Shown here: positions 30,547 through 56,454 of the stretch, one piece after another
Numbering within the stretch: position 1 is the stretch's first letter
How the letters are laid out: every line of letters starts with the position of its first letter
From: Ruegeria sp. Alg231-54
Lineage (GTDB): Bacteria; Pseudomonadota; Alphaproteobacteria; Rhodobacterales; Rhodobacteraceae
Assembly (NCBI RefSeq): GCF_900143525.1
Contig: NZ_FREZ01000005.1
Location: 186,003-250,002 of the forward strand
Direction of reading: 5' to 3'
Length of the DNA stretch: 64,000 nucleotides
The notes under the pieces: model-generated
The model's database searches: none
What the model saw: only the letters and a program-made list of their open reading frames with translations
Told to the model about the DNA's origin: nothing
Made by a program: the position numbers and the translations under genes

Positions 30547-30580
30547 CGCGCCTCAAACCCACTCATACAAGGAAGTGCTG

Positions 30581-33241: not shown

Positions 33242-33248
33242 GGCACGT

Positions 33249-38856: not shown

Positions 38857-38880
38857 AGATAGTTTAGCGTTAAACTATCT
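38857..38880. promoter_or_regulatory. candidate operator of the pdh operon
   Basis: AGATAGTTTA (38857-38866), GCGT, TAAACTATCT (38871-38880): a perfect palindrome with 10-base arms, between the pdhA start and its promoter region. The core TAGTTTA-N4-TAAACTA recurs before lpd at 56433-56454. Confidence 0.75.
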
Positions 38881-38996
38881 CATAAAGCATTTGTTGCTTT
38901 CTGGCGAGGGGAAATGTGACGCAGCGTCCGGCCGGGCAGAATTCAGCGCGTGATCATGCGGTTAACCCGTGGGGTGGCATCCATAGCTGGGGGGGG

Positions 38997-39296
38997 TCAG
39001 CGAATGACGATCTCATCCGAGCGGATCATGCCCAGCACGGACCGCGCCTGCTGATCCAGAAGATCCAGATCCAGGTAATTGTCTGACAGGCGGCGCGTCA
39101 GGTTTTCCATTTCTGTGATTTCGGCGTCAAGTTTGGCTAGGTCGCGCGACAGGGCGTCCCGTTCCGCTGCGATCTCGACCCGTCGGAACAGGCCATAGTC
39201 GCCCTGCACGGCGGCGAAGGTGAAATAGACACCCAGCGTGAAAGCCACCATGAAGAATACAACTGAGCCCAAACCGGGCCGATGGGAACGGGACAC
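38997..39296 (-). CDS. ftsB: cell-division protein FtsB/DivIC-like
   Basis: 99 residues with one TM helix (~10-30) and a coiled coil (~40-75, RDALSRDLAKLDAEITEMENLTRRLSDN), the FtsB/DivIC pattern. It forms the FtsQLB complex that activates septal wall synthesis. The ending DLLDQQARSVLGMIRSDEIVI matches the family. It lies upstream of pdhA on the same strand with a 164-base gap holding the pdh operator, a common alphaproteobacterial order (ftsB before pdhA). Confidence 0.85.
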   Translation of the reverse strand: MSRSHRPGLGSVVFFMVAFTLGVYFTFAAVQGDYGLFRRVEIAAERDALSRDLAKLDAEITEMENLTRRLSDNYLDLDLLDQQARSVLGMIRSDEIVIR

Positions 39297-39461
39297 TCTG
39301 TTTACCGCCGTATGAAGTCTGCCTCAAAAACGTGCCCTTTTCGGACATCTGTCTGCACTATGTCACAGGTGATTCGGCTTGTGAATCCCTCGATTCGCAC
39401 TTTTTGATGATCAGCAGAAAAAACATGTTCGCCCGATGAATTTGGCTGGGGTGAAAAGTGG

Positions 39462-39806
39462 CTATCGCCAAGCCTCAAGCGCTTGATTGCGCTGCAGGGT
39501 TTGTTCTTCCATGCAGGCCCAATAAAACATAGGGGCCGCGCTACCGTCGCTTTCCAGCTCGGTGTCACAGGTCGCGTCACGACGTTTAAGCCAGGCGCGT
39601 TGCTCGGTCAGCAGGGCTTGGCCATCACCACGCGTGTCCGATAAGGGTTTGATCTCTGACCAAAGGCGGTTCAACTCTTGATCAGCAATTTCCCATTTTT
39701 CTTTGGCGCAGAAATTGAGATCGAGCTGTGTGTGCCCGTTGCAGTGGGATTGCGCATATGTCGTGACGGGCAGCAGCGTGGTGGCAAGGACGGCAACAGC
39801 TTTCAT
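39462..39806 (-). CDS. secreted LprI/DUF1311-family protein
   Basis: 114 residues. Signal peptide (~1-18, ending TYA). The mature part has the DUF1311 pattern: four or more conserved Cys (HCNGHTQLDLNFCAKEKW, ATCDTELES, FYWACMEEQT) with D-LN-W/LWxxIK...LLxxQRAWLKxRD between. The family includes LprI lysozyme inhibitors, so a periplasmic or surface role is possible, but the exact activity is not established from sequence. ATG 39806; the frame runs further upstream without support. Confidence 0.75.
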   Translation of the reverse strand: MKAVAVLATTLLPVTTYAQSHCNGHTQLDLNFCAKEKWEIADQELNRLWSEIKPLSDTRGDGQALLTEQRAWLKRRDATCDTELESDGSAAPMFYWACMEEQTLQRNQALEAWR

Positions 39807-39867
39807 GGTGCATCTCCCGGTTTGACGAAGAGAATACCATGAATGCCGATTGCCAGACAGATAGGGG

Positions 39868-41058
39868 TTACTGATCCAGTGCCGCAACACCGGGCAGCGT
39901 TTTGCCTTCCATCCATTCCAGGAAGGCACCCCCTGCAGTCGAAATGTAGGAAAAGTCCCTGGCAGCACCGGACGCATTCAGCGCAGCGACCGTGTCACCA
40001 CCGCCTGCGACCGACACAAGCTGTCCCGACCTTGTCAGCTCAGCCGCTTTCAGGGCCGCTGCGTTGGTGGCGGCATCGAATGGTTCAATCTCGAATGCAC
40101 CCAGCGGACCGTTCCAGATAAGCGTTTGGCTCTTGTCGAAAATCGCAGTGATTTCCGCAACGGTTTCCGGACCAGCGTCAAGGATCATGCTGTCTTCGGG
40201 GCATTGATCAGCTGGCAGGATCTTACTGGGGGCGTGGGCTTCGAACTTTTCAGCAACCACGACGTCGCGGGGCAGGACAATCTGGCAGCCGGTTGTTTCA
40301 GCCTTAGTCAGGATCTCGGCGGCAGTGTCCTTCATCGCGGTTTCTGCCAGCGACTTGCCGACGTTTACGCCTTGCGCGACGAGGAACGTGTTCGCCATGC
40401 CACCGCCAATAATCAGGTAATCCACCTTTTCGATCAGGTTGCCCAACAGGTCCAGCTTGGTTGAAACCTTGGCGCCGCCGACAACCGCAGTCACCGGGCG
40501 TTTAGGCGCGCCTAACGCGGCTTCCAACGCGCTCAGCTCTTGCTGCATCAGGCGGCCCGCGCAGGCGGGCAGAAGACGGGCCAGCGCCTCGGTCGAGCTG
40601 TGCGCGCGGTGCGCCGCCGAAAAGGCATCGTTGCAGTACACGTCGCCCATCTTTGCCATGCCGGCAGCCAGATCAGGGCTGTTCTTTGTTTCCGCAGCGT
40701 GAAAGCGCGTGTTTTCCAGTAAAAGCACCTCGCCAGCGCCCAAGTTTGCTGTTGCGGTTTCCGCCTCGATCCCGACGCAGTCATCGCCAAACCGAACCTT
40801 GGTGCCAAAGGTCGTCTCCAGCGTCGGAACAAGCTGCTTCAGCGATAGGTTCTGGCGGCGCTCTCCGCCCGGGCGTCCGAAATGCGCCAGCAGGATGGGC
40901 TTACCGCCAGCGGCCAAGATGTCCTTAACGGTCGGCACGATGCGCTCAATACGGGTGGCGTCGGTCACGACCCCGTCGACCACTGGCACGTTGATATCCA
41001 CGCGCACCAGCACGCGTTTGCCGTTCAGGTCCATGTCGTCCAGTGTTTTCCAGCCCAT
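39868..41058 (-). CDS. pgk: phosphoglycerate kinase
   Basis: Glycolysis/gluconeogenesis: 1,3-bisphosphoglycerate + ADP to 3-phosphoglycerate + ATP. 396 residues, normal. Family signature [17 protein letters not shown] at the N-terminus; nucleotide-binding loop [19 protein letters not shown] near residue 197 and the C-terminal [15 protein letters not shown]. Divergent from ppi genes (136-base gap). Confidence 0.98.
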
Positions 41059-41194
41059 CGCGCAATCCTCGACAAATGTGAAAGTGACTTAGGCGGTTCT
41101 TTTCCTGCATTTTGCCCTCAGGTCAATGCGTCACTTGGCATTCGCGCGCCCTGCGCATAGGTATTTGCGCAAGATAAAACGACAGGAGGGCCTC

Positions 41195-41701
41195 ATGGCC
41201 GAGATCAAGGATCCCGAAAACACAATCATCGTTGAACTCAAAGGCGGCAATGTCGTCATTGAGCTGCTGCCTGACGTGGCACCGCAGCACAGCGCCCGCA
41301 TGAAAGAACTGGCGCGCAATGGCGAATATGACAACGTGGCCTTTCACCGTGTGATCGACGGTTTCATGGCGCAGACCGGCGACGTGCAACATGGCGACAT
41401 GGAAGACGGGTTCAACCTGCGCATGGCGGGCACCGGCGGGTCGTCTCTGCCGAACGTTCCAGCCGAGTTTTCGAAACTGCCCCATGATCGTGGTACTTTG
41501 GGCGCGGCCCGCTCGCAGAACCCGGATTCGGCCAACTCGCAGTTCTTCATCAACTTCGGCGACAACCATTTCCTGAACGGACAGTACACTGTTTATGGCC
41601 GTGTCATCGACGGAATGGAGCATGTGGACGCCATTGTACGAGGCGAGCCGCCGGCGAGCCCTGACCGCATGATCAGCGTCAAGGTGGCGGCTGATGTATA
41701 A
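41195..41701 (+). CDS. cytoplasmic peptidyl-prolyl isomerase (cyclophilin type)
   Basis: 168-residue cyclophilin; isomerises Xaa-Pro bonds. Active-site core YDNVAFHRVIDGFMAQTGD near residue 46-64 and NSQFFINFGDNHFLNGQYTVYGRV near 110-130. No signal peptide after choosing ATG 41195, which has AGGAGG upstream. Its stop overlaps the start of a second cyclophilin by 8 bases, so the pair is co-translated. The two copies are similar throughout and probably arose by tandem duplication. Confidence 0.95.
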   Translation: MAEIKDPENTIIVELKGGNVVIELLPDVAPQHSARMKELARNGEYDNVAFHRVIDGFMAQTGDVQHGDMEDGFNLRMAGTGGSSLPNVPAEFSKLPHDRGTLGAARSQNPDSANSQFFINFGDNHFLNGQYTVYGRVIDGMEHVDAIVRGEPPASPDRMISVKVAADV

Positions 41702-42242
41702 GCTGGCCGCCGCTTTTGCCTTGCTGGCGAGCCCTGCGCTGGCCACAGGTCTTGAGGTCGAGATCGAAGGTGAGGGGGCCAATGGCACTGTCACCATCGA
41801 CCTGTTCGATGATATTGCTCCGAAACATGTTGAGCAGATCGCTGCTCTGGCCAATGAAGGCAAGTACGATGGCGTGGTGTTTCACCGCGTGATTGACGGC
41901 TTCATGGCGCAGACCGGCGACGTGCTACATGGCCGTTTGGGTGGCGACATGCGCCGCGCCGGAACCGGTGGTTCCGACCGTGCAGACCTTCCGGCCGAGT
42001 TTTCAGATTTTGAATTCGACCGGGGCGTGGTTGGCATGGCGCGGGCGCAAGACCCCAACAGCGCCAACTCACAGTTCTTTATCATGTTCGAACCGGGCCC
42101 GTTCCTGAACGGCCAGTACACGGTTGTTGGTCAGGTGACCGACGGCATGGACGTGGTTGACGCGATCAAACGCGGTGAGGGTCAGAACGGTGCCATTATC
42201 GGCCAGCCGGACGTGATGAAAAAAGTCACCGTCACCGAATAA
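41694..42242 (+). CDS. periplasmic peptidyl-prolyl isomerase (cyclophilin type)
   Basis: 182 residues: signal peptide (~1-17, ending SPALA) plus a cyclophilin domain (YDGVVFHRVIDGFMAQTGD, NSQFFIMFEPGPFLNGQYTVVGQV). So this copy acts in the periplasm, while its upstream twin (8-base overlap) is cytoplasmic. A strong terminator follows at 42251-42279. Together they look like an operon for Pro isomerisation on both sides of the inner membrane. Confidence 0.95.
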   Translation: MYKLAAAFALLASPALATGLEVEIEGEGANGTVTIDLFDDIAPKHVEQIAALANEGKYDGVVFHRVIDGFMAQTGDVLHGRLGGDMRRAGTGGSDRADLPAEFSDFEFDRGVVGMARAQDPNSANSQFFIMFEPGPFLNGQYTVVGQVTDGMDVVDAIKRGEGQNGAIIGQPDVMKKVTVTE

Positions 42243-42250
42243 TCCTTGAA

Positions 42251-42279
42251 CCCGGCGCTGGCACCAGCGCCGGGTTTTT
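42251..42279 (+). terminator. terminator of the cyclophilin pair
   Basis: CCCGGCGCTGG (42251-42261) pairs with CCAGCGCCGGG (42264-42274), then TTTTT (42275-42279). Also lies at the 3' end of the convergent hydrolase gene. Confidence 0.92.
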
Positions 42280-42281
42280 CG

Positions 42282-43124
42282 TCATTGGTCGATGAAGCCT
42301 CTGATCGCTTGCGTGTATGCATCCGGGTCTTGAAACGACGCAAAGTGACTGACGTCTTTAAAAATCAGAAGATCAGCATCAGGGATCGCATCGGCAATCG
42401 CTTGCGAGTGTTCGGTAAGGATGGCCTCGTCATGTTCGCTCTGCACGACCAGAGTGGGCACGGTCACCGATTGCAGCCCCTCAAGCCCGCCGGGCTTTTC
42501 CGTGGCCCACATGGCCGCGACACCGTCTAGGAACGCTTCGAACCCGTCCGGGGTGGGGGACATGGCGGCATAGTCCCCGGCCATCATTCCGACGTAAGAA
42601 CCGAAGACTTCGTTGGTTTCGACTGAAGGATCGATCCCATCCAGTGTGACATTGCCCGCATGGGCGAAATGGCTGGCCAGGCGGTCTGGTGCCGTGGTCG
42701 AAATCGTGTATCCAATGTTGGCACCATCCGACCATCCAACCAGATGCACCTGTTCGACATTCAGATGATCCAGCAGCGCCAGATAGTCCTGCGCCAGCAA
42801 TTCATAGCTGTAGGTGCTGCCGTTATTGGTTGACCGGCCATGCCCTCGGGTATCTGCCACAATCACGCTGTGGTCGCTGGCCAGATCAGCCACTTGCGCT
42901 GCCCAGATATCGCCATGCGCAAGACCGCCATGGATCAACAGAACGGGTGTGCCCTCTGCCGATCCATAGGTGGCGTAATACATGTTGATGCCATTCACGT
43001 TGGCGGAACCACTGGACGCGGCCTCGGGCATGGCGGGCGTTTCGGGGATTGTCAGCCAGGCATCCTGTGCCAGTCCCGATGTCGCGGTCAACGTCATCGC
43101 AGTGACCATCAGTGTTCGAAGCAT
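42282..43124 (-). CDS. secreted alpha/beta hydrolase
   Basis: 280 residues with a signal peptide (~1-19). Alpha/beta-hydrolase fold: oxyanion loop LLIHGGLAHGDIW, strand-turn VIVADTRGHGRST, nucleophile elbow GWSDGANIG (Ser near residue 131), acid in VVQSEHDEAIL and His in DVSHFASFQDP. Resembles peroxidase/esterase-like members (the MhpC/BpoC group); the substrate is not readable. Periplasmic or exported. Convergent with the cyclophilin genes. Upstream, 43125-43179 is a short spacer before the aquaporin hairpin. Confidence 0.87.
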   Translation of the reverse strand: MLRTLMVTAMTLTATSGLAQDAWLTIPETPAMPEAASSGSANVNGINMYYATYGSAEGTPVLLIHGGLAHGDIWAAQVADLASDHSVIVADTRGHGRSTNNGSTYSYELLAQDYLALLDHLNVEQVHLVGWSDGANIGYTISTTAPDRLASHFAHAGNVTLDGIDPSVETNEVFGSYVGMMAGDYAAMSPTPDGFEAFLDGVAAMWATEKPGGLEGLQSVTVPTLVVQSEHDEAILTEHSQAIADAIPDADLLIFKDVSHFASFQDPDAYTQAIRGFIDQ

Positions 43125-43179
43125 GTCTACCTCCCTGGTTTCGCGTCGTCTCGTCAGGGATGATAGCTTAGGAAGAGGA

Positions 43180-43204
43180 AAGCGGGGGAAATAATCCCCC
43201 GCTT
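43180..43204 (-). terminator. hairpin after aqpZ
   Basis: AAGCGGGGG (43180-43188) pairs with CCCCCGCTT (43196-43204). On the minus strand it follows aqpZ and is trailed by TTTCCTCTTCC, a weak T-rich tract. Confidence 0.65.
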
Positions 43205-43209
43205 GGCCT

Positions 43210-43899
43210 TTAGTCGTCTGTTGTCATCGCCTTCCAGATCAATGCGCCGATTGCGCCACCGATCAGGGGTGCGACCCAGAACAGCCAGAGCTGCCCAAGG
43301 GCAGGCGCGTCCGCGAACAAAGCAACCCCTGTGGACCGGGCCGGGTTGACGGAAGTGTTGGTCACCGGGATCGAGATCAGGTGGATCAATGTCAATCCAA
43401 GCCCGATGGCGATGGGGCCGAACCCTGCAGGAGCGCCGCTGGAAGTGGCCCCCAGGATGATGATGATGAAGAACGCGGTCATGACGATCTCGATCACCAG
43501 AGCGGACATCAGCGAATAGCCCTCGGGTGATGCCTCACCATAACCGTTCGAGGCAAACCCACCCACGCCTTCAAAGCCGGGCGCGCCGCTGACGATCAGG
43601 TACAAGACCGCAGCTGCAGCAATCGCGCCGATAACCTGAGCGATCCAATAGGGGATAAGGTCCTTGGCCGGAAACCGTCCCCCGATCATCAGCCCAAGGC
43701 TGACCGCAGGGTTGAAATGGCCGCCCGAGATGTGCCCAACGGCATAGGCCATCGTCAGAACGGTCAGGCCGAAGGCAAAGGCAACGCCAAGCCACCCGAT
43801 ACCTACATCGGCGACCCCAGCGGCCAGAACGGCGCTACCACAGCCGCCAAGCACGAGCCAGAACGTACCAAAGAATTCAGCCATAAGTTTTGATGACAT
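43210..43899 (-). CDS. aqpZ: aquaporin Z-type water channel
   Basis: 229 residues, six TM helices plus two half-helices. NPA boxes are [10 protein letters not shown] near residue 64 and VNPARST near 184, the latter followed by Arg of the selectivity filter. Length and spacing fit AqpZ rather than GlpF. ATG 43899 has GGAGGA upstream; the frame is open further back but is non-coding there. Likely osmotic water exchange in a marine bacterium. Confidence 0.93.
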
Positions 43900-44059
43900 T
43901 AAAAGTCCTCCAGAAAACAATGGGTTTAAGGTTAATTCAAAAAGTTCATTTTGTGAAATTGTAAGAAAGCAGCCTGTGCCTGGAATCCTGTTTGGGTTGA
44001 ATTGGGAAGGGAAAGGACAAATACTCACTCACAATATTAGCATGTGTAGGTCTATAAAG

Positions 44060-44851
44060 ATGCCCAATCGATTGCGTCTGAGAAATTGCGCTCTGCGCTC
44101 CGCGTTTCTGTATCTTGGTTTCATCAATTCGGCAGGCGCCGAACAAGTGGAACTTCCAAATGGCGCTGATTTCTATCTCGGTGCAGCGTTTCGCAGCATT
44201 ATGACCTTTTCTCCTGCCGAGATCACAACCGACGACGTTCGGCAGCAGGTTGCTGGGAATTATTTCGCTCTGATGTCGAACGCGGATGGCGTGCTGTCTC
44301 AGGCGGACGCAGTGGACTATTTACGGGTCGTTTCGAACAAGTATTCGTTTTCCATTACCAAAGAGCCAGCGCGATACGATCTGGACCGGGACGGTGTGGT
44401 CACGCAGGCAGAACTTGAAGTGTTCTTCTCAAAAGATGCCTGGGGAGCGGCCTATCATCGGTATGCTCAAGGGGCGACTTTTGAAGAGGCCACCGTGCGG
44501 TTTCGGCAAAAACTTGGTAAGCAAACGGCTCGTATCCGGGGTGTGATGGGAGCGGCTGAAAACGGTAATATTCCCGTCGTCGATCCGAAAGGCGGCTGGA
44601 CGGGGGCTGAAGAAACGGCCAGGCCCAAGCCCGTCCCTTACTTCGATGACTTTGACATTGACGGTGACGCAGCCGTTACGTTTGAAGAGTTTACTGAACA
44701 ACTTTGGGCGGCAGTCGCGGCATCGGATCTGGACGCGGACGATCTTTTTTCAGATGATGAAATCAACCGGGTTCGGGAACGCTTTATTCTTGCCAACGAG
44801 GCGTTGGAAGGAAATGGGTTCCGTTCAGTGTCAAGCTGGGCGGAGCGTTAA
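44060..44851 (+). CDS. exported EF-hand calcium-binding protein
   Basis: 263 residues when started at ATG 44060 (MPNRLRLRN...), which gives a basic N-terminus and a hydrophobic run ending at INSAGA, i.e. a signal peptide; ATG 44042 is a longer alternative. Calcium loops are visible: DLDRDGVVTQAELE near residue 112, DFDIDGDAAVTFEEF near 205 and a degenerate DLDADDLFSDDE near 228. An earlier acidic segment (SNADGVLSQADAVDYL) may be a further diverged hand. Catalytic motifs absent; a periplasmic Ca2+ sensor or buffer is likely. Divergent from aqpZ. Confidence 0.7.
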   Translation: MPNRLRLRNCALRSAFLYLGFINSAGAEQVELPNGADFYLGAAFRSIMTFSPAEITTDDVRQQVAGNYFALMSNADGVLSQADAVDYLRVVSNKYSFSITKEPARYDLDRDGVVTQAELEVFFSKDAWGAAYHRYAQGATFEEATVRFRQKLGKQTARIRGVMGAAENGNIPVVDPKGGWTGAEETARPKPVPYFDDFDIDGDAAVTFEEFTEQLWAAVAASDLDADDLFSDDEINRVRERFILANEALEGNGFRSVSSWAER

Positions 44852-44933
44852 AGACACGCGCTGATCCCTAAGAACGGTCGCAGTGCGCCTCACACAGGAT
44901 CAATAGATCAATGCTTGTTCCAACTTCCACGAG

Positions 44934-45743
44934 TTAAGCCCAGCTTACCGGGTCCAGTCGGAACAGTTTGGAAAGCTGGTCATATACCTCGGGTACAGCC
45001 GCCTTCAACGCGCGGGGCTGTTCGAAAAAGACCTCGACAGAGACGGCAAAAAACTCCTCGTGCCCGGTCGCGCCATAGGGATCTATGACCGTGTGCCGTC
45101 CACTTTCGACAGCGCGTACATGGGAGTCATATGCGGTCAGGAACACGCGTTCCCATTCGGCAAAGCTTTGTCCGTCGCTTAGGATCGGAACACCGTTGGT
45201 TCCCCCAGACATGTCGTCGATTTGGTGGGCGAACTCATGCAGTACGACGTTCTGCCCGTCATGATCATTAAGCGCGCCAAGTTTGCTGTGGGTCCAGGAG
45301 AGAATAACCGGTCCCCGGTCCCAGCTTTCACCGGTGCGCACGATCTCTTTCTCGCTGACGACGTATCCTTCCTGTCGGCGCTGCCGAGACTTAAAAGCGT
45401 TCGGGTAGATCAGGATCGTTGTCAGGTTTTCATACCAAAGGTCGCTGTTTCCAATAAGCAGACAGGCCTGCGCGGCGATGGCCAGTTCCATCTCTTCGGT
45501 TACGTCCAGCCCGTCGCAACCAAAGAAACGAACCTGATCCAAAAACAGATTCACCTTGCCGTCCAGTTTGACACGCAGGTCTAGGGGCAGGCGGCGGATC
45601 AACGGCACTTGCTGCTCGATGAGCACGCGTTGGCGGTCTGTCAGGGGGGTGGACAATAGCTGTTGGCGCGCCCGGGACTTGGACCAGTAGCGATACAGTA
45701 GGAAACCGGCAATAAGCGCCAAGGCAGTGAAAAAGAACAACAT
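44934..45743 (-). CDS. MtfA-family zinc peptidase, membrane-anchored
   Basis: 269 residues. One N-terminal TM helix (~3-22) then the MtfA/DUF980 domain with the zinc motif VVLHEFAHQIDDMSGG (HEFAH) and the downstream EEFFAVSVEVFFEQP, which supplies the third ligand. Other family motifs: VPLIRRLPLDLRVKL, QACLLIGN...WYENLTTILIYPNAF. E. coli MtfA is a cytosolic aminopeptidase that titrates Mlc; the anchor here is a difference shared by many alphaproteobacterial members. ATG 45743 gives MLFFFTALA. Confidence 0.9.
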   Translation of the reverse strand: MLFFFTALALIAGFLLYRYWSKSRARQQLLSTPLTDRQRVLIEQQVPLIRRLPLDLRVKLDGKVNLFLDQVRFFGCDGLDVTEEMELAIAAQACLLIGNSDLWYENLTTILIYPNAFKSRQRRQEGYVVSEKEIVRTGESWDRGPVILSWTHSKLGALNDHDGQNVVLHEFAHQIDDMSGGTNGVPILSDGQSFAEWERVFLTAYDSHVRAVESGRHTVIDPYGATGHEEFFAVSVEVFFEQPRALKAAVPEVYDQLSKLFRLDPVSWA

Positions 45744-45805
45744 GTGGGCCACTATAAGGACGCGCCGGGCGGTTGGAACCGGAAAACCTAATCGTCCCCG
45801 ACAAA

Positions 45806-45837
45806 CGAAAAAACGCCGCAGGTTTCCCCGCGGCGTT
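45806..45837 (-). terminator. terminator of the M23-bactofilin operon
   Basis: AACGCCGC (45812-45819) pairs with GCGGCGTT (45830-45837); on the minus strand a T-tract follows (45806-45811). It lies after the bactofilin stop. Confidence 0.85.
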
Positions 45838-45861
45838 CGAAACTTTGGAAAGTGGTCCGCG

Positions 45862-46362
45862 TTACTGCTTGACCTCGGCCGCCGGGTTGGCACCCGCCTT
45901 GCCGCTGCGGCCCGGGTTCAGGGGGTCGTCCTGACGCTGAACCGATCCTTCGAAATGCGCACCGCTTTCGATCGCGATGGTCTTGTGGATGATGTCGCCT
46001 TCGACACGTGCGGACGAGGTCAGGCGAACTTTCAAGCCACGGACACGGCCCACGATGCGGCCGTTGATCACGACGTCATCGGCAGTGACTTCGCCTTTGA
46101 TGGTGGCGGTCTCGCCGATTGTCAGCAGATGCGCACGGATGTCGCCTTCGACAGTGCCTTCGACCTGGATATCGCCCGAGGTCTTCAGGTTGCCCGTGAT
46201 GTGCAGGTCCGAAGACAGAACCGATGCCGGTGGCTTGGGCTTGGGCGCGGTGCTGGCCTTGTTTTCTGCCGGTGCAGGGGCCGCCGGTGTCGCCGGTGCA
46301 GCGGGTTTTGCCGCCTCGGGTGCAGTGGACGAGGGCTCGTTGATTTTGCTCTTAGAAAACAT
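45862..46362 (-). CDS. bactofilin (polymer-forming cytoskeletal protein)
   Basis: 166 residues. A Pro/Ala-rich disordered N-terminus (~1-45) precedes the right-handed beta-helix bactofilin core: SSDLHITGNLKTSGDIQVEGTVEGDI, GEVTADDVVINGRIVGRVRG, LTSSARVEGDIIHKTIAIESGAHFEG. It forms filaments that position cell-wall enzymes. It overlaps the upstream M23 peptidase gene by 11 bases; the bactofilin-M23 pair is a well-known shape-determining unit. Confidence 0.93.
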   Translation of the reverse strand: MFSKSKINEPSSTAPEAAKPAAPATPAAPAPAENKASTAPKPKPPASVLSSDLHITGNLKTSGDIQVEGTVEGDIRAHLLTIGETATIKGEVTADDVVINGRIVGRVRGLKVRLTSSARVEGDIIHKTIAIESGAHFEGSVQRQDDPLNPGRSGKAGANPAAEVKQ

Positions 46363-47686: not shown

Positions 47687-47855
47687 CTCTCCATCCCCAA
47701 GATCGGGATCGGTCGTGAGTGATAGCCGTCCCTTGGGCGAAGTGCATAAAGCGGCATTTTGTTTTGGGCAAGTTTGTTAACTTACCGACCCTGCGTTACT
47801 GGTTTTTGCCGCCGATTCTAGGCGAGAAATTGCCGATAACGTCAACTTAAGCCCG

Positions 47856-48692
47856 TTATTGCGTCTGTCCCGGCAATGGCAAGTCTTCCGTCAGAGGCCA
47901 GTAGAAATCCGGCGGTAGCCCGGCCTCGGCCCGTTTTTCTTCGTTAAACGGGGGCTTCAGGACGCCATGGAAATACTGGCGCACCAATTGGTGAAACACA
48001 TCCTTGGGATCCGCGTTTTCACGCCCACACAGGAAATGGAACCATTTTGATCCATAAGCCACGTGTCCCACTTCTTCGGCATAGATGACCTCAAGCGCGG
48101 CGATTGCCTGTTCGGCCTTTGCCTTGCGGAATATGTTGATCATGCCGGGTGTCACGTCCAACCCACGCGCCTCAAGCACCATGGGGACAACCGCCAGCCG
48201 TCCCATCAGGTCTTCGGCAGTGTCTTCGGCCGCGCGCCACATTCCAGCATGCGCGGGTAGGGCGCCATAGTGGCTGCCCATGCTTTCGAGACAGTCACAG
48301 ACCATCTCAAAATGCCGTGATTCTTCTTCGGCACATTTGACCCAGTCATCGTAGAACCCGATCGGCATTGGCACGTGGCCAAACCGCGCGATGATGTCCC
48401 AATGCAGGTCGACGGCGTTCAGCTCGATATGCGCAACTGCGTGAAGCAGGGCGATACGCCCGGCCTCGGTTCCGGGCTTGCGCTTTGGAACCTCACGCGG
48501 CGACAGCAGCTCGGGCTTTTCCGGGCGGGCCGGGTTCAGCGGCGGAGTTGCGGTTCCCACCTCAATCTCAGGCGCGTCGCCCTTGCGCGAAGCGAACCAG
48601 ACGGCGGCATAGCGCTTGGACAGGGTGGTCTTTTCACGACCATTCGCTGTTGTCAGGACTTCGGTCGCCATCTGAGTCAGTGTTTTGGACAC
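47856..48692 (-). CDS. DUF455 ferritin-like protein (MiaE-like fold)
   Basis: 278 residues. The DUF455 family shows di-iron ligands on a four-helix bundle: HIELNAVDLHWD near residue 91, the EEESRHFEMV motif near 123 and YAEEVGHVAYGSKWF near 206. These E..H/E.E..H patterns match ferritin-like oxygenases related to tRNA-hydroxylase MiaE. Substrate unknown. Upstream of bcp on the same strand order (bcp 48757-49218, DUF455 downstream), 64 bases apart, perhaps co-transcribed. Confidence 0.82.
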   Translation of the reverse strand: MSKTLTQMATEVLTTANGREKTTLSKRYAAVWFASRKGDAPEIEVGTATPPLNPARPEKPELLSPREVPKRKPGTEAGRIALLHAVAHIELNAVDLHWDIIARFGHVPMPIGFYDDWVKCAEEESRHFEMVCDCLESMGSHYGALPAHAGMWRAAEDTAEDLMGRLAVVPMVLEARGLDVTPGMINIFRKAKAEQAIAALEVIYAEEVGHVAYGSKWFHFLCGRENADPKDVFHQLVRQYFHGVLKPPFNEEKRAEAGLPPDFYWPLTEDLPLPGQTQ

Positions 48693-48756
48693 CGCGTTGT
48701 CTCCGCTGATTGAGGTGGACGGCTCTTAAACCGGATGGCGGCCGTGGTCGAGAGGG

Positions 48757-49218
48757 TTACAGGGCGCGCACAGCCTCTAGCACCTCGTCCACATGGCCGG
48801 GGACTTTGACCTTGCGCCAGACGTTGGCGATCTTGCCCTCGCCGTCGATCAGGAAGGTCGAGCGCTGAATTCCCATGGATTTCTTGCCGTACAAGTTCTT
48901 TTCAACCCAGACGCCATAGTCCTCGCAGACCGAAGACCCTTCGTCCGACAACAGCGGGGTCGTCAGGCTGTGCTTGGCGACAAATTTGTCGTGCTTGGCG
49001 ACGCTGTCCCGCGAGATGCCGAAAACTTGAGCACCCGCATCGGCAAAGGCCTGAAGTTGTTCCGAGAAACCGATGGATTCCTTGGTGCAGCCTGGCGTAT
49101 CATCGCGGGGATAGAAAAACAGAACGACGGCACCGCCGCGCAGGTCCGAAAGGGTCACTTCGCCGCCGCCGTCGCGGGGTAATGTGAAATCAGGGGCGAT
49201 GTCTGTCACGTCGGGCAT
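48757..49218 (-). CDS. bcp: thioredoxin-dependent peroxiredoxin (Bcp/PrxQ)
   Basis: 153 residues, cytoplasmic peroxidase. The active site is FYPRDDTPGCTKESIGFSEQ with peroxidatic Cys near residue 46. The resolving Cys five residues later, seen in E. coli BCP, is absent (Ile/Ser here). A distal Cys in SSVCEDYGVW near 88 could resolve instead, as in some PrxQ variants. Transcribed ahead of the DUF455 gene. Confidence 0.93.
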   Translation of the reverse strand: MPDVTDIAPDFTLPRDGGGEVTLSDLRGGAVVLFFYPRDDTPGCTKESIGFSEQLQAFADAGAQVFGISRDSVAKHDKFVAKHSLTTPLLSDEGSSVCEDYGVWVEKNLYGKKSMGIQRSTFLIDGEGKIANVWRKVKVPGHVDEVLEAVRAL

Positions 49219-49277
49219 TGGAAACTCCGCTAAAGGATTTTAAGTGCTGCCCAGCATAATAGGGCGACGCGAGCGGG

Positions 49278-52200
49278 TTGAAAGACTTGGATAAAAAATT
49301 GGCTCAGCACGAAGACGCAAGTGGCGACCGGCCCGAGACGCCTGTCCGCCGCCGGTCACGCCGTCGTATCGCCGCGCGCTGGAGCATTGGAACCCTGTTT
49401 TTAATGTGCCTGCTGGTCGGAGCGGGCTGGTTCTTTCTGATCGGAAAACAGCTGCACGCGCCGGAATGGATCACGCAGAAAGTAGAAGCGCGTCTTGAAC
49501 GCAGCCTTGGCGGTTTAAAATTCACCTTTGGGGACGCCAGCTTTATCGTCAACGATAAGTGGCGCCCGCGAATCCGATTGACGGATGTGACTATCAGCGA
49601 TGCAGCGGGTCATCAGATCGCTCAGATATCGGATTTGCGGACACGCCTATCGATGCGCGAATTGTTGCGTGGTAAGATCAGACCGCGGCGGATCACTATG
49701 CTGGGCGCGCAGATTGCTTTGACCCGTGGTGAGGACGGTGCGCTGTCGCTGACAGTTGGGTCAGGCAGTGCCCCGGTGCAAAAGGCTCCGACGCTGGCAC
49801 AGCTTATCGAGGAATCGGATGATGTGTTCCTGTCCCCGTTTCTGTCAGGATTGCGGGCGGTCGATCTGGAATCGCTGACGCTGGATTATCAGGATCTGCG
49901 GCTGGGGCGGGCCTGGGTGTTTGACGGCGGGCATATCTCGATCATCCGGGACGGGGATGAAATGCGGCTGGCGACCGGATTTTCGGTTCTGACCGGGCGC
50001 GATTACGCCAGCACGATCGAGGCGAACTATACCAGCGTGCTTGGTACCCCTCAGGCGAGTTTTGGGGTTTCGATCACCGATCTACCCTCGGAAGACATTG
50101 CCACTCAAAGCGTTGCACTGGCGTGGTTGCAGGTGCTCAATGCTCCAATTTCCGGCGCGTTACGGGGCAGCGTCGATGGGCAGGCCGCGCTGGGTCCGCT
50201 CTTTGCGACGTTGAACCTGGGCGAGGGTGTCTTGCAGCCCAGGCCCGAGACGCGCCCGATCGGATTCGAATCCGCGCGCGCCTATTTCACCTATGATCCC
50301 GCGCGTCATGTTCTGGAATTCAACGAGGCCTCGGTCGTGTCCGACGTGGGGGCCGTGCAGGCCGAAGGCAAAGCCTATTTGAACGGGGTCGAAAACGGTG
50401 TTCTTGAAAGCCTGACGTCACAGCTGACCCTGAACAGTATCGATATCTACCCCGGTGGTCTGTTCCCGGAATCGCTGGAAACCGCGCGGGCGGACCTGGA
50501 TTTTCAACTCAAGCTTGCTCCGTTCGAGCTGCAGTTGGGGCAGTTGACCATCACGGATGCCCTGCACGAATTGCACGCGACGGGCAGGTTGATCGGCCAG
50601 CCCGACGGTTGGGATGCCGCGTTTGATGCGCAACTGGACAAGATGGTGTCCGAGAACCTGTTGCGATACTGGCCCGAAAGGCTGGCGCCGAACCCGCGGA
50701 AATGGGTGTCGGAAAACCTGTACGAGGGGCAGTTTTTGGATGTGGAATTTTCGCTGCGCTTGCATCCCGGCAGTAAGCCGGACCTCTATCTGGGCCTTGG
50801 GTTCGATGAGGCCAAGATCAGGTTTGCCAAGACCTTGCCGCTGATCCAGGACGGGCAGGGTCGGCTTAGCCTGTTGAAAGACCGCTTTACCGTCACGGCT
50901 GAAAAAGGGGTTGTCATCGCCGATCAGGGTGGCGCGGTGGATGCCTCGGGAACCTCGTTCATTATCCCGGATACAACTGCCAAGGGCGGAACGCCTGCGA
51001 TTGCTCGGATCGAGGCGCGCGGCAGCGTCGAGGCGGCCCTGTCGCTGCTGGACCGCCCACCACTAAGCCTGATGTCCAAAGCCAACTTGCAGGTTGATCT
51101 GGCAGCTGGTGGCGTAAGCTTGTCAGGAACCTTGTCATTGCCGCTGAAAAAGGGGCTGAAGTTTCACGACACCGAATTCCACTACACCGGTGAAATCGAC
51201 AATGTGCAAAGCGACAAGCTTGTACCTGACTATTCGGTCAGCGCCGACCGATTGAACCTGTCCGGCAATCAGACCGAGGTAGAGATCAACGGCTATGGCT
51301 CGTTCGGCCAGGTGCCTATGCAAGTCGCGTGGCGTCAGCCCATTGGCGTAGACGGCCCGCAGCGCAGCGAACTGACGGGCCAGATCGAATTGTCGCCGCT
51401 GCTGATGAGTGAACTGAAGGTGCCGCTGCCGCCGGGCATGCTGACTGGAAAAGGCACAGCGGATATCACCGTTGGAATCGGCGCGGATGAACCAGTCACA
51501 CTCTCTGCGACCTCGGACCTTGCAGGGGTCGGGATGGCGATTCCTGAACTTGGTTGGCGCAAAGGGACGGGGGCGACCGGAAAGATGACACTGGACGCCA
51601 CGCTGGGTGAAAAGCCCAAAGTGGATGATCTGACGCTTGATGTCGCGGGGCTGCGCACTAAAGCCTCGATCTTCTTCCGGGACGGGGGTGCCTTTGACCG
51701 GATACGGTTCAGTTCGTTTGATCTGGGCAACTGGCTGGCGGTGCCGGCCGAACTGATCAACACCGGCGGACTTGTCCCCAATATCGTCGTTCAGGGCGGT
51801 GTCATGAATCTGGGTCGCGCAACCTTCGGCGAGGGCGGCGGCGGAGGAGGGTCAGGCCCCGGTCCAAGGATCGATGTTCTGTTGGACCGCCTGCAGGTGA
51901 CCGAAGACATTGCACTGACAGGCTTCCGGGGCGCGTTTCAAACGACAGGCGGGGTGAACGGCTCCTTTACGGCCAACGTAAACGGCGGCACGGAGGTCAG
52001 CGGCCAAGTGAGCCCGCGCGACAGCGGTAGCGCCGTGAACATTAAGTCGAAGGACGCGGGGGCCGTCCTACGGTCAGCTGGTGTGATCACCCAGGCGCGT
52101 GGCGGCAGTTTGGATCTGCAACTGGAACCGGTCAGCGCGCCGGGGAATTATGATGTGATCCTCAAGATCTTAAACACACGCATTACTGACGCACCGGCAA

Positions 52201-52670
52201 TGGCCGCACTGTTAGACGCGATCAGTCTTGTTGGACTTTTGGACGAGATGACCGGGCAGGGGATCTTTTTCTCGACTATCGATAGCCGCATGCGGATCAC
52301 TCCGACCGAAATCAAAGTCCTCAGTGGAAGCGCCGTTGGCCCGTCCATCGGCTTGTCCTTTGACGGCACGATCGACACGGTTGCGGGCATGCTGAACCTG
52401 CGTGGGGCGATCTCTCCGATCTACCTGGTGAACGCGATCGGAAGTGTTTTCACAAAAAAAGGCGAGGGGGTCATCGGGTTCAACTACAGCCTGACCGGGC
52501 CGCTTACGAAGCCAAAGGTTTCCGTAAATCCGCTGTCTGGCCTTGCGCCATTGTTCCTACGAAATTTACTGCGCGCACCGGCCCCGACCGTATCAGATGG
52601 CCCCAATGCGCTGCCGAGAAAGCCGGATGAACCCAAAAAGACCTTTGGTTCTCCGCCCCGGGACAATTGA
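49278..52670 (+). CDS. AsmA-like / DUF3971 envelope protein
   Basis: 1130 residues. Short basic cytoplasmic N-terminus, one TM helix (~36-57), then a very long repetitive beta-strand periplasmic region. The central part matches DUF3971 (GHISIIRDGDEMRLATGF, ADGVVxxQGG-like strands) and the end (~1000-1090) the AsmA C-terminal pattern: ISLVGLLDEMTGQGIFFSTIDSRMRITPTEIKVLSGSAVGPSIGLSFDG. Such bridge-like proteins are thought to move phospholipids between membranes. Start at TTG 49278 (weak ribosome site); no ATG gives the anchor. Divergent from bcp and 48 bases ahead of queA. Confidence 0.88.
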   Translation: MKDLDKKLAQHEDASGDRPETPVRRRSRRRIAARWSIGTLFLMCLLVGAGWFFLIGKQLHAPEWITQKVEARLERSLGGLKFTFGDASFIVNDKWRPRIRLTDVTISDAAGHQIAQISDLRTRLSMRELLRGKIRPRRITMLGAQIALTRGEDGALSLTVGSGSAPVQKAPTLAQLIEESDDVFLSPFLSGLRAVDLESLTLDYQDLRLGRAWVFDGGHISIIRDGDEMRLATGFSVLTGRDYASTIEANYTSVLGTPQASFGVSITDLPSEDIATQSVALAWLQVLNAPISGALRGSVDGQAALGPLFATLNLGEGVLQPRPETRPIGFESARAYFTYDPARHVLEFNEASVVSDVGAVQAEGKAYLNGVENGVLESLTSQLTLNSIDIYPGGLFPESLETARADLDFQLKLAPFELQLGQLTITDALHELHATGRLIGQPDGWDAAFDAQLDKMVSENLLRYWPERLAPNPRKWVSENLYEGQFLDVEFSLRLHPGSKPDLYLGLGFDEAKIRFAKTLPLIQDGQGRLSLLKDRFTVTAEKGVVIADQGGAVDASGTSFIIPDTTAKGGTPAIARIEARGSVEAALSLLDRPPLSLMSKANLQVDLAAGGVSLSGTLSLPLKKGLKFHDTEFHYTGEIDNVQSDKLVPDYSVSADRLNLSGNQTEVEINGYGSFGQVPMQVAWRQPIGVDGPQRSELTGQIELSPLLMSELKVPLPPGMLTGKGTADITVGIGADEPVTLSATSDLAGVGMAIPELGWRKGTGATGKMTLDATLGEKPKVDDLTLDVAGLRTKASIFFRDGGAFDRIRFSSFDLGNWLAVPAELINTGGLVPNIVVQGGVMNLGRATFGEGGGGGGSGPGPRIDVLLDRLQVTEDIALTGFRGAFQTTGGVNGSFTANVNGGTEVSGQVSPRDSGSAVNIKSKDAGAVLRSAGVITQARGGSLDLQLEPVSAPGNYDVILKILNTRITDAPAMAALLDAISLVGLLDEMTGQGIFFSTIDSRMRITPTEIKVLSGSAVGPSIGLSFDGTIDTVAGMLNLRGAISPIYLVNAIGSVFTKKGEGVIGFNYSLTGPLTKPKVSVNPLSGLAPLFLRNLLRAPAPTVSDGPNALPRKPDEPKKTFGSPPRDN

Positions 52671-52718
52671 CCCGGATGGGCTGTTGCTGATTCCGATGCG
52701 GAATTGTATGGCGCGGCT

Positions 52719-53765
52719 ATGAAACTCAGTGATTTTGATTTCCATCTGCCTGAAGACCGGATTGCCACACGTCCCGCCAGCCCGCGCTCATCCGCGCGCC
52801 TGTTGGTGGCCGATGGTAACGCGATCTCGGATGCGCATGTTTTTGATCTGCCTGACTGGTTGCGGCCGGGTGACAGATTGGTGCTAAACGACACTCGCGT
52901 CATCCCCGCACGCCTGAACGGACGGCGCCATCGCGACAGTTTACAAGGGCCGGTGTCTGCCGCGATCGAAGCCACATTGTTGGACCCGCAGGCTGATGGT
53001 ACATGGGCGGCCCTGATCAAACCGCTGAAGAAAGTGAAGCTGGGCGAAGACATTCAGTTCTCGGATCATCTGAGCGCCATGCTGGAGAGGGTTGAGGACG
53101 GGCAAGCCTATCTGCGGTTCAATCTGTCGGGCGATGATTTTGATGCTGCATTGGAACAGGCCGGGGCAATGCCTCTGCCGCCTTACATCGCGGCCAAGCG
53201 GCCAGCGGATGAGCAGGACAAGACGGATTACCAGACAATCTGGGCGCGCAATTCCGGTGCGGTTGCCGCGCCAACGGCGTCGCTGCATTTTGATGAGGCG
53301 TTGATGCAGGCGCTGCGCGCCCGCGGCGTCGCCGTTACTCATGTCACGTTGCATGTGGGCGCGGGCACCTTTCTGCCGGTCAAGGTCGAGGACGTGACGA
53401 CCCACAAGATGCACGCCGAATGGGGCAGTGTCAGCGCCGCCGCCGCGCAAGAGATCCGAGAGACCAAAGCCGAAGGGGGCAGGGTCATCCCGGTGGGCAC
53501 TACCGCCCTGCGTCTGATCGAAAGCGCCAGCCGTTCGGGCCAGATCGAACCATGGGAAGGTGAGACCGATATTTTTATATATCCTGGCTTTCAGTTCCAC
53601 GTGACCGACGCGTTGATGACCAATTTCCACCTGCCGAAATCCACTTTATTGATGCTGGTGTCGGCCCTGATGGGGCAGGAACGCATGCGACTGGTGTACG
53701 CGCATGCGATTGAACAGAAATATCGGTTCTTCTCTTACGGGGACGCGTCGCTTTTGATCCCGTAA
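52719..53765 (+). CDS. queA: S-adenosylmethionine:tRNA ribosyltransferase-isomerase
   Basis: Queuosine pathway: adds the epoxycyclopentane from SAM to preQ1-tRNA. 348 residues, normal. Family motifs: [56 protein letters not shown] and [20 protein letters not shown] 52719 gives the family N-terminus MKLSDFDF; an in-frame codon 15 bases upstream is less likely. tgt often follows queA but is not here. Terminates at 53765, before the MFS gene. Confidence 0.97.
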
Positions 53766-53877
53766 AGGACGTGTTGTCGGGATCGAATCTTTTCAATGTC
53801 GTAGACAAGCATGACCAAAGCCGTTTTTGATTGCAAAACGGTGTCACAGTCTAGGTCGGAATTTTTCGGAGGCCCCA

Positions 53878-55149
53878 ATGATTCAGGTCCTTTCCAGCGC
53901 ATGGGCGCTATTACTTGGTATGGGCCTGTTGATGGTCGGAAACGGCCTTCAGGGGACAATTCTTGGTGTCCGGGGCGAGATCGAGGGGTTCTCGACCCTT
54001 CAGATGTCGTTCGTGATGTCGGCCTATTTCGTTGGTTTCCTGGGTGGATCGCGCCTTGCACCAGAAATGATCCGGCGGGTCGGACATGTGCGGGTCTTCG
54101 CGGCGCTGGCATCGTTCATTTCTGCCGTGATGATCATGTATCCGTTGATGACCGACCCGGTTATCTGGATTCTGGGCCGTGTCGTGATCGGGTTCTGTTT
54201 CTCCGGAGTGTACGTCACTGCGGAAAGCTGGCTCAACAATGCAGCCAGCAACGAGAACCGCGGCCAAGCGTTGTCCCTTTACATGATCTTCCAGATGACA
54301 GGCATCATCAGCGCACAAGGTTTGGTTCTTTTGGGCGACCCGGCCGGATTCGACACCTTTGTAATCGCCTCCATTCTGGTTTCGGTCTCTTTTGCGCCAA
54401 TTCTCTTGTCGATCTCACCGACACCTGCGTTTGACACAACCAAACCGATGACTCTGCGCGAATTGTTCGGATATTCGCCCTTGGGCTGTGTTGGCATGTT
54501 TCTTTTGGGCGGCGTGTTCTCTGCACAGTTCGGGATGGCGTCGGTATACGGTGCCCGCGCGGGCCTGACATTGGTCGAGATTTCGACTTTTATTGCCGCA
54601 TTCTATATCGGTGCTTTGGTCTTGCAGTATCCATTGGGATGGATGTCCGACCGCATGGATCGCCGTTTCCTGATTATGCTTGTTGCAGGGGTCGGCAGCT
54701 GCGCGGCATTTGTGGGCTTGGTGTTCGGGGTGACGTTTCCAATCCTGCTGGGCGCGGCCTTTGTGATCGGCGGTATGTCGAACCCGCTTTACTCATTGCT
54801 GATTGCGCACGCGAATGACTTTCTGGAACACGAAGACATGGCTGCAGCGTCAGGGGGTCTCTTGTTTATCAACGGCATGGGGGCCATTGCGGGCCCGTTG
54901 ATCACCGGTTGGCTCATGGGGGATGCGGTCTTTGGTCCTCCGGGCTTTTTCCTTTTCATCGCAATCCTGCTGGTCGTTATGGCGGGCTACTCGCTCTACC
55001 GTATGACCCAGCGCGCGGCGATCCCGGTCGACGAAACAGGCACCATGTCGCCGCTCTATCCAACGGCGTCCCCGGTTGTGATGGAATTGGCGCAGGAATT
55101 GGCCATTGAGGCCGCAGAAGCCGAGCAGGAAACGCAAGATGTTGCCTAG
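53878..55149 (+). CDS. MFS transporter (YcaD-like)
   Basis: 423 residues, 12 predicted TM helices. The loop 2-3 signature is modified (GGSRLAPEMIRRVGHVRVFAA, in place of the usual GxLaDrxGrR), and loop 8-9 shows WMSDRMDRRFLIM. Composition resembles the small-solute MFS proteins of the YcaD/UMF type; substrate unknown. ATG 53878 with CGGAGG upstream is preferred to an earlier in-frame start that lacks a site. The last ~40 residues are cytoplasmic and Ala/Glu-rich. Confidence 0.85.
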   Translation: MIQVLSSAWALLLGMGLLMVGNGLQGTILGVRGEIEGFSTLQMSFVMSAYFVGFLGGSRLAPEMIRRVGHVRVFAALASFISAVMIMYPLMTDPVIWILGRVVIGFCFSGVYVTAESWLNNAASNENRGQALSLYMIFQMTGIISAQGLVLLGDPAGFDTFVIASILVSVSFAPILLSISPTPAFDTTKPMTLRELFGYSPLGCVGMFLLGGVFSAQFGMASVYGARAGLTLVEISTFIAAFYIGALVLQYPLGWMSDRMDRRFLIMLVAGVGSCAAFVGLVFGVTFPILLGAAFVIGGMSNPLYSLLIAHANDFLEHEDMAAASGGLLFINGMGAIAGPLITGWLMGDAVFGPPGFFLFIAILLVVMAGYSLYRMTQRAAIPVDETGTMSPLYPTASPVVMELAQELAIEAAEAEQETQDVA

Positions 55150-55258
55150 AACACGACTTTATGTCGCAAGTGTTGCAATAATTTACTGTTACAATTCTGA
55201 AAAACGCACTTAAATGAATTTAAGTCCCTTGGGGGGGAAACACGACGGAGTTAAGGGC

Positions 55259-55837
55259 ATGGCAAGTCCTGAAGATGTATTGAGTTTTTGGTTAGATGAG
55301 GTTGGTCCCAAGGGTTGGTATCTGCAGGATGACGCATTGGATGCAGAAATCCGCGAAAGATTCCTGACTACATGGGAGGCTGCGAGTGAAGGCAAGTTCT
55401 CTCTCTGGCTGACCTATCCCAGCGGCGCATTGGCGTACATCATCCTGATGGATCAGTTCCCACGCAACATGTTCCGAGGAAGCGCTGAGGCCTTCGCCTC
55501 AGACCGTGCGGCGTTGTCAGCAGCGAAATGTGCGGTGGACAAAGGGTGGGATATGAAGATCGACGAACCGGCCCGCCAGTTCTTTTATCTTCCATTGATG
55601 CATTCGGAAAACCTGTGTGACCAGGAACGCTGTGTGCGCCTGATGTGTCAAAACATGACCGATGGCGACGACGGCAACCTGTTGCACGCAAGGGCGCATC
55701 GCGAAGTGATCCGCAAGTTCGGTCGGTTCCCATACCGCAACGACGCTCTCTCGCGCCCAATGACCGAGCACGAGGCCGCCTATGTCGACATGGGCGGATA
55801 TGGCGCGACCGTGCGCGAGCTGCAGACAGCCGGCTAG
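55259..55837 (+). CDS. DUF924-family protein
   Basis: 192 residues. The family pattern is recognisable: VLSFWLDEVGPKGWY, LWLTYPSGALAYIILMDQFPRNMFRGSAEAFASD and FYLPLMHSENLCDQERC, with HREVIRKFGRFPYRN. Helical, TPR-like fold of unknown function. ATG 55259 has ACGGAG upstream. Its last four bases overlap the stop of the convergent coiled-coil gene. Confidence 0.85.
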   Translation: MASPEDVLSFWLDEVGPKGWYLQDDALDAEIRERFLTTWEAASEGKFSLWLTYPSGALAYIILMDQFPRNMFRGSAEAFASDRAALSAAKCAVDKGWDMKIDEPARQFFYLPLMHSENLCDQERCVRLMCQNMTDGDDGNLLHARAHREVIRKFGRFPYRNDALSRPMTEHEAAYVDMGGYGATVRELQTAG

Positions 55838-56268
55838 GACGCCGGCTCGCAGCCTCGGATTGCAATGATCCGGTCGGCAACAATGTCGGCCGAATTTTCA
55901 ATTGCAGTGTTGATTAACTGGTCCGGGGCTTCGGTCAACTCGGCTATTCTCGCCTGCGCAGCTTGCAGGTTATTCTCTAAATCATTCAGCTTTTCCAAAG
56001 CTTCAGACAGTTTTCGGGCGGTGGCACTATCGGCTGCTGTTCCGCTAAGCTGAAGGGATGACAGGTCGCTGCGCAATGCCGTCAGTTCACCGCGTATCCC
56101 TTGAACGTCTTCCTTCAGGGGCGCTACGATCTGGACCTTCTCCGCAAACTTGACGGTAATGTCGTCGACTGTAGAAGCCAGCTTCCACCCCAGAAACAGG
56201 CATAGTGCAATCAGGATAAGCGTTGCATTCAGCACGGCGAGCAACAGATCTTTAAGCGTTTTGGCCAT
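55834..56268 (-). CDS. membrane-anchored coiled-coil protein
   Basis: 144 residues. A single TM helix near the N-terminus (~8-31, LLAVLNATLILIALCLFLGWKL) then a predicted coiled coil (~45-125, LKEDVQGIRGELTALRSDLSSL, LSEALEKLNDLENNLQAAQARI) and a Cys in the terminal IRGCEPAS. Unrecognised; likely an inner-membrane anchored helical rod. ATG 56268 is chosen because it starts the hydrophobic anchor; the open frame upstream is not coding-like. Confidence 0.65.
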   Translation of the reverse strand: MAKTLKDLLLAVLNATLILIALCLFLGWKLASTVDDITVKFAEKVQIVAPLKEDVQGIRGELTALRSDLSSLQLSGTAADSATARKLSEALEKLNDLENNLQAAQARIAELTEAPDQLINTAIENSADIVADRIIAIRGCEPAS

Positions 56269-56432
56269 GGTAAGCCTTTCGAATGACTTGGGTTTCACAA
56301 AGTCCGGACAGGCCCGGTGCGTATCTTCTAGCCATAGGTTCACGCGCGGTATAGGCTGAAAACAGCGCATACCGCGCCAGTTTACCCTGCGTCTGTTTTG
56401 TCGCGGGAGCAATATGTTGATGCATTCAGGAG

Positions 56433-56454
56433 ATTAGTTTAATGGTAAACTAAT
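56433..56454. promoter_or_regulatory. candidate operator of lpd
   Basis: ATTAGTTTA (56433-56441), ATGG, TAAACTAAT (56446-56454): perfect palindrome 30 bases before the lpd ATG. Core TAGTTTA-N4-TAAACTA matches the site before pdhA (38857-38880), same spacing. Confidence 0.75.

Follow-up and report, generated by a model that had tools for sequence, protein, structure and literature searches.

In Escherichia coli the genes of the pyruvate dehydrogenase (PDH) complex are repressed by PdhR, a GntR-family protein with sites of the type TTGGT-N3-ACCAA. Sites of ScfR, a regulator of the RamB/PccR type, are of the type TTTGCAAA. We analysed a stretch of 64,000 nt from Ruegeria sp. Alg231-54 (contig NZ_FREZ01000005.1, positions 186,003 to 250,002; in the following called the window), in which two perfect palindromes with the common core TAGTTTA-N4-TAAACTA stand before pdhA and lpd. 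The species belongs to the Rhodobacteraceae, which include abundant marine bacteria as well as photosynthetic model species and for which no settled account of the control of pyruvate-to-acetyl-CoA entry was found in the literature. For Rhodobacter sphaeroides, Imam et al. (2015) predicted a set of targets of the LacI protein RSP_1663 (CceR) that includes the pdh operon, RSP_2968 and malic enzyme, with the motif [A/G/T]GTT N6-8 AAC[A/C/T], which falls into two clusters by spacer (PMC4344238); RSP_2968 has been named as a possible E3 gene (PMC12632250). Co-regulation of pdh, lpd and malic enzyme was already predicted in 2015, and the new part of the present work is the candidate regulator.

Compared by reading with these motifs, neither palindrome contains the TGCA core of the ScfR type, and spacing and arms are unlike those of the PdhR type, which bears out the difference from both that had been pointed out from the sequence alone. 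The regulation proposed here would resemble E. coli PdhR in the repression of PDH genes and differ from it in protein family, in operator and in the inclusion of malic enzyme. PhaR/AniA of Sinorhizobium meliloti likewise links pdh, the malic enzyme gene tme and polyhydroxybutyrate (PHB) metabolism, but with a YGCR-N-YGCR core, absent from both of our sites by reading, and with positive control of pdh (PMC12542648). The CceR regulon comes from the same bacterial family, has overlapping predicted targets and a motif whose N6-8 spacer covers our site (PMC4344238, PMC4052901); the CceR-type sites found here are nevertheless TGTTA-N4-TAACA, whereas the pdhA/lpd type TAGTTTA-N4-TAAACTA tracks a MarR gene. 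Our candidate shares with MarR repressors (PF12802/PF01047) the small winged-helix protein and a palindrome, its presumed operator, that lies on the inferred core promoter, and is set apart from them by predicted targets that belong to core pyruvate metabolism and are scattered in the genome instead of forming the neighbouring operon. The palindrome is very probably the operator of a repressor, and a MarR protein of 144 amino acids is its likely regulator.

The palindrome before pdhA, lpd and maeB

The two palindromes and the genes behind them are located in the window as follows.

38857..38880, minus strand: perfect palindrome AGATAGTTTA-GCGT-TAAACTATCT with arms 10-4-10, putative operator of the pdhA operon
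56433..56454, plus strand: perfect palindrome ATTAGTTTA-ATGG-TAAACTAAT with arms 9-4-9, putative operator of lpd
37843..38832, minus strand: pdhA, pyruvate dehydrogenase E1 alpha (TIGR03182, E 4e-155)
36460..37827, minus strand: pdhB, E1 beta carrying a lipoyl domain at its N-terminus (NF008854, E 2e-250; PF00364)
35147..36445, minus strand: pdhC/aceF, E2 dihydrolipoyl acetyltransferase (TIGR01349, E 2e-157)
56485..57879, plus strand: lpd, E3 dihydrolipoyl dehydrogenase (TIGR01350, E 7e-170)

The two palindromes, whose common core of 18 bp lies at 38860-38877 and 56435-56452, stand 24-27 nt before the pdhA ATG (38832, minus strand) and 30-32 nt before the lpd ATG (56485), respectively. The sequence-only reading had claimed two perfect palindromes with the same core and spacer before genes for E1/E2 and E3 of one complex, and a very low probability of their arising by chance. 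Window scan and reading confirm the sites, Pfam and NCBIfam profiles the genes, and the counts agree with the claim about chance: three matches with ≤3 mismatches were found in the window, two of them perfect, while 100 dinucleotide shuffles gave a mean of 0.22 and a maximum of 2, so that none reached three. In the whole genome (4,922,849 bases, 35 contigs) the perfect core is present only before pdhA and lpd; from the base composition of the window one would expect about 0.004 perfect sites per genome, and 0.17 with one mismatch. Imperfect matches alone are uninformative and were counted only if kept in relatives, since at ≤2 mismatches the motif yielded 7 sites in the genome and the reversed control 10; extra sites from a relaxed scan (degenerate motif, ≤1 mismatch) are unreliable for the same reason (9 sites vs 7 for the control).

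Among the imperfect sites, one with 1-2 mismatches is located 26 nt before maeB (malic enzyme, locus L005), and because relatives keep this site we count maeB, from sequence comparison, as the third conserved member of the regulon. A one-mismatch site about 110 nt before phbB (L003; acetoacetyl-CoA reductase, TIGR01829) makes this gene a possible fourth member in Ruegeria itself. Of the three other sites with 1-2 mismatches, that of L004 lies between hpd and an Lrp-type regulator gene, that of L006 precedes a dioxygenase-like gene, and that of L007 has unrelated genes on both sides, all assigned by eye. The first of these, the one-mismatch site TAGTTTTCGTGTAAACTA at 1501-1518 of L004, may be the regulator's own site or a product of chance.

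Perfect sites were found in 143 of 295 genomes of the family, as opposed to 4 for the reversed control. Among the matches listed we examined 77 perfect sites (the 2 of Ruegeria itself, 30 loci of relatives and 45 further places), and 72 of them precede pdhA (41, L023 counted here), maeB (19) or lpd (12, our own included), with the lpd sites holding the same place in all 12 loci. The remaining five are located elsewhere (L022, L036, L138, L139, L169); in L169 the site (2001-2018) is flanked by aroC and a kinase-like gene, a cytochrome c1-like gene lies about 0.6 kb away, and by eye there is no obvious target. For pdhA, conservation was followed in the best 80 of 580 named relatives of the window PdhA, which are its nearest relatives: a site with ≤4 mismatches within 250 nt is present in 80/80, with 0 mismatches in 44, 1 in 18, 2 in 14, 3 in 2 and 4 in 2, at a median distance of 27 nt (range 16-72) from the ATG. 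Neither many unrelated copies nor poor conservation, the outcomes that would have spoken against a PDH regulon, turned up in the scan of genome and relatives, and the regulon is wider than had been claimed.

Alignment on the site also revealed the likely position of the promoters. In the 80 pdhA promoters CTCGC is preferred at -31..-27 (0.60-0.70 per base), followed by T at -7 (0.85), A at -6 (0.75) and A at -3 (0.65); the 12 lpd promoters show a TTG at -18..-16 (T 0.92, T 1.00, G 0.92), and in the 19 maeB promoters there is only a weak T-rich signal at -18..-16. In the window these preferences correspond to the following elements.

38902..38907, minus strand: inferred -35 box of pdhA (TCGCCA), from the CTCGC preference in the aligned promoters
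38879..38884, minus strand: putative -10 box of pdhA (TATGAG), separated by 17 nt from the -35 box and touching the outer edge of the operator
56417..56422, plus strand: inferred -35 box of lpd (TTGATG), from the near-fixed TTG; the -10 box would then lie inside the operator

At pdhA and lpd the sites would accordingly touch or cover the -10 box, the signal for maeB being weaker, and a position on the inferred core promoter suits a repressor. As the palindromes are near the inferred transcription start, a short RNA hairpin is conceivable, and leftovers of a mobile repeat could be considered too. We regard both as very improbable: there are only two perfect copies in 4.9 Mb, the arms are kept while the N4 varies, the pdhA flanks are little conserved apart from promoter-like and Shine-Dalgarno-like stretches, and close pairs of the palindrome stand before MarR units as well, as described below.

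A MarR protein as candidate regulator

The lead to the regulator came from outside the family, where a perfect site is present in 7 of 187 genomes of the class. Three of these seven sites precede a marR-bearing operon, two of the three with a second copy 21 nt away. The MarR protein of one such locus (L196) is 39% identical (E 2e-37) to a protein of Ruegeria (L208), located outside the window.

G000:C26:31495-31926, minus strand: marR candidate (L208), 144 amino acids, MarR profile match

The scores of this protein with PF12802 (38.7 bits, cut-off 27) and PF01047 (26.1 bits, cut-off 24.6) mark it as a MarR winged-helix protein, while no NCBIfam equivalog matched it at cut-off. With the MarR_2 profile the genome gives 51 matches, and 30 of them were covered as loci. 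By eye the gene stands in a row of a grx-like gene, a nitrilase-like gene and marR, with a ubiG-like gene 0.75 kb off on the other strand. The recognition helix reads VTRGAMTNTL in L208 and VTKGAITNTL in L196, and the orthologues of L208 in the family share the helix VT[KR]GA[MI]TN.

We found that this helix and the palindrome go together. A search of the class with the L196 protein covered 289 genomes and gave a match in 36; 30 loci were taken, 26 of them outside the family. The helix VT[KR]GA[MI]TN is present in 14 of these 26, and in 12 of the 14 there is a site with ≤3 mismatches. In each of the 12 loci it belongs to a pair of sites spaced by 21-24 nt and located 1.16-1.36 kb upstream of marR; a single open reading frame separates the pair from marR and, judged by eye, looks nitroreductase-like in nearly all of them. 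At loci with another helix no such site was found (0/15: 12 class loci and 3 paralogues of the family with a VPKT-type helix). The association is significant by Fisher's test (p 2e-6, or 8e-6 without the two lead loci), with the qualification that the helix classes were drawn after the data had been seen and that some loci are close relatives. L271, with the helix VT[KR]GA[MI]TN, has only a 4-mismatch pair, and at L275, whose helix is LAKGAITN, there is a pair with 4 mismatches and a distance of 20 nt. Block shuffles of these loci gave best matches with a median of 4-6 mismatches, and since single shuffles reached 1-2 in three loci, the paired arrangement weighs more than any single match. Three genomes of the family (L376, L377, L378) additionally encode, near a nitroreductase-like gene, a second paralogue of MarR with about 40% identity and the helix VPKT[ST]M[TS]HTL, without the palindrome.

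Gene and sites are also absent together. L208 MarR was matched in 128 of 149 genomes of the family, and PdhA was sought in 20 of the 21 genomes without a match: seven gave no PdhA match, G102 gave only a 39% match, G085 is cut by a contig end, and 11 were usable. A pdhA site was present in none of the seven that are 97-99% complete. Set against them were 30 genomes with a match to MarR that had been selected for their lack of a perfect site, three on account of a weak MarR. PdhA is present in 28 of the 30, and 26 of the 28 show a recognisable pdhA site (≤4 mismatches, a level that no more than 0.5% of 200 mononucleotide shuffles attained), which in G053 and G023 lies 87-104 nt before the assumed start. 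The difference between 26/28 and 0/7 corresponds to p 5e-6. For maeB the site was found in 10/16 genomes with MarR and 0/14 without (p 3e-4), G054 being represented among the 14 by a paralogue only. A perfect site anywhere in the genome occurs in 63/115 MarR-bearing vs 0/17 other genomes at ≥90% completeness (p 6e-6), and in 67/126 vs 2/23 if all genomes are taken. On the MaeB tree the presence of MarR changes seven times (bootstrap 6-8), and no independent pair goes the wrong way. PdhA itself is absent from 7/20 genomes without MarR (E 1e-60) vs 2/30 with it (E 1e-100), as if regulator and PDH complex had been lost together. Six genomes that are ≥97% complete (G017, G047, G054, G066, G071, G094) have no match to either protein, which suggests that they use another pyruvate dehydrogenase.

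The late drawing of the helix classes is one of several points that weigh against the MarR protein as the regulator. L268 has the helix VT[KR]GA[MI]TN and no site was found there. Conversely, in the class genome of L193, the third of the marR-bearing operons that gave the lead, a perfect site (1501-1518) stands before a short-chain dehydrogenase/reductase (SDR) gene and a MarR gene with another helix; this locus lies outside the count of 12/14 vs 0/15, and a helix test that includes it gives 10/12 vs 1/16 (p 5e-5). Near marR in Ruegeria itself no operator was found, the best match having 5 mismatches. The sequence-only reading had proposed looking for a regulator gene that carries the site itself; within the family none was seen, and for the MarR homologues outside the family such a copy was found. 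Four genomes without a MarR match retain the pdhA site; all are only 74-83% complete, and missing sequence is the likely explanation. In G101 the MarR is divergent (47% identity) and a pdhA site is lacking, in G020 the pdhA site is reduced to a 5-mismatch remnant, and 6 of 16 MarR-bearing genomes have maeB without a site. Well-supported branches force only three changes of MarR presence. On these branches three independent pairs remain, two of them informative for pdhA and 0-2 for maeB, a number that does not suffice for a test.

It could be asked whether another regulator of the Rhodobacteraceae binds the palindrome, the link to MarR being a coincidence of shared lineage. Related genomes are indeed not independent, with three pairs surviving the filter for branch support, and further inputs exist: deletion of iscR in R. 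sphaeroides lowers pdhAB and RSP_2968 (PMC4618611), a joint drop which at the same time fits their co-regulation. We consider this alternative quite unlikely, as the paired palindrome before MarR two-gene units in other families is tied to the helix class, independently of lineage within the Rhodobacteraceae. Other places where a regulator could be encoded yielded no candidate. In the window, translations read by eye gave RodZ-like and LuxR-like proteins, neither of them adjacent to pdhA or lpd. Directly after perfect sites within the family, other than those of pdhA, lpd and maeB, no regulator was recognised by eye, divergent neighbours not all having been inspected.

Relation to CceR/GapR

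According to the published prediction the sites would belong to CceR (GapR, RSP_1663), which would have to tolerate a spacer longer by two bases at pdh, lpd and malic enzyme. The N8 form of the published N6-8 motif does fit the palindrome, and the target list with malic enzyme, RSP_2968 and pdh agrees with ours (PMC4344238). The centre of the site is a pyrimidine-purine step in 75 of the 77 perfect sites, with CG in 39, and a central CG is typical of most LacI operators (PMC4052901). In Paracoccus denitrificans MaeB drops upon deletion of cceR (PMC11323563); loss of a protein whose operator overlaps the inferred core promoters should, however, raise MaeB, whereas the cceR deletion lowers it.

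The sites in Ruegeria itself argue for a distinction between the two types. TGTTAGCGGTAACA before zwf and TGTTAGCGCTAACT before a gap gene (genes by eye) have N6, arms of 5 and a shifted half-site; both genes are reported GapR targets. The half-site at pdhA and lpd is one base longer on each side; the spacing from GTT to AAC is N8 at pdhA/lpd and N6 (TGTTANCGNTAACA-like) at zwf/gap, within a published motif that spans N6-8 (PMC4344238). The number of DGTTA-N4-TAACH sites in the genome is not enriched (8 places, those at zwf and gap among them, vs 32 for the reversed control). When the regulon of the same protein was rebuilt as GapR in 13 Rhodobacteraceae by Ravcheev et al. (2014), the text named no pdh, lpd or maeB (PMC4052901). 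The MarR-type link has no CceR counterpart here, joint absence of CceR not having been searched for. The cceR-like protein of Ruegeria (L038) appeared GntR-like by eye, and the seven further LacI proteins encoded in the genome have local-operon-like neighbours by eye and best site matches with 4-5 mismatches. Membership of the pdhA and lpd sites in the CceR/GapR regulon is weakened by these findings, and we hold binding by CceR to be unlikely. The idea of the sequence-only reading that the regulator might be undescribed stands in part: Imam et al. had grouped the targets under CceR, but the evidence favours another protein, of the MarR type, and no earlier link between MarR and PDH in the Rhodobacteraceae was found among the literature matches listed.

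Proposed regulation and further features of the window

Taken together, we favour the following reading, to which we assign a probability of about 60%. In most Rhodobacteraceae the MarR protein would be a dedicated repressor of the route from malate over pyruvate to acetyl-CoA (maeB, pdhABC, lpd and in some genomes phbB), derived by recruitment of an autoregulated ancestor with a nitroreductase-like gene under its control. Its own operator would have been lost in the family, the protein would disappear where the PdhAB-type complex is lost, and the 2015 assignment to CceR would have merged two regulators. MarR binding and repression, which we infer from sequence comparisons, could proceed as follows: at the -10/start region of pdhA, lpd, maeB and possibly phbB a dimer would bind the palindrome of 18 bp and block RNA polymerase, until an intracellular metabolite from the malate-pyruvate-acetyl-CoA node releases it and the whole route is switched on together. 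As to the nature of this effector, a pyruvate- or acyl-CoA-type ligand is our guess.

The analysis yields a candidate gene, an exact operator and three to four targets. If the reading is true, a second regulator would be separated from the published CceR network, and the protein may be an example of a MarR regulator that shifted from a local unit to core metabolism.

Two further regions of the window were noted by eye from the translations. At 28600-33545 there are phage genes of portal-like and capsid-like appearance, with no full prophage obvious around them; they look like the head cluster of a gene-transfer agent. At 9313-10963 two adjacent genes on the reverse strand resemble an autoinducer synthase and a LuxR-type regulator.

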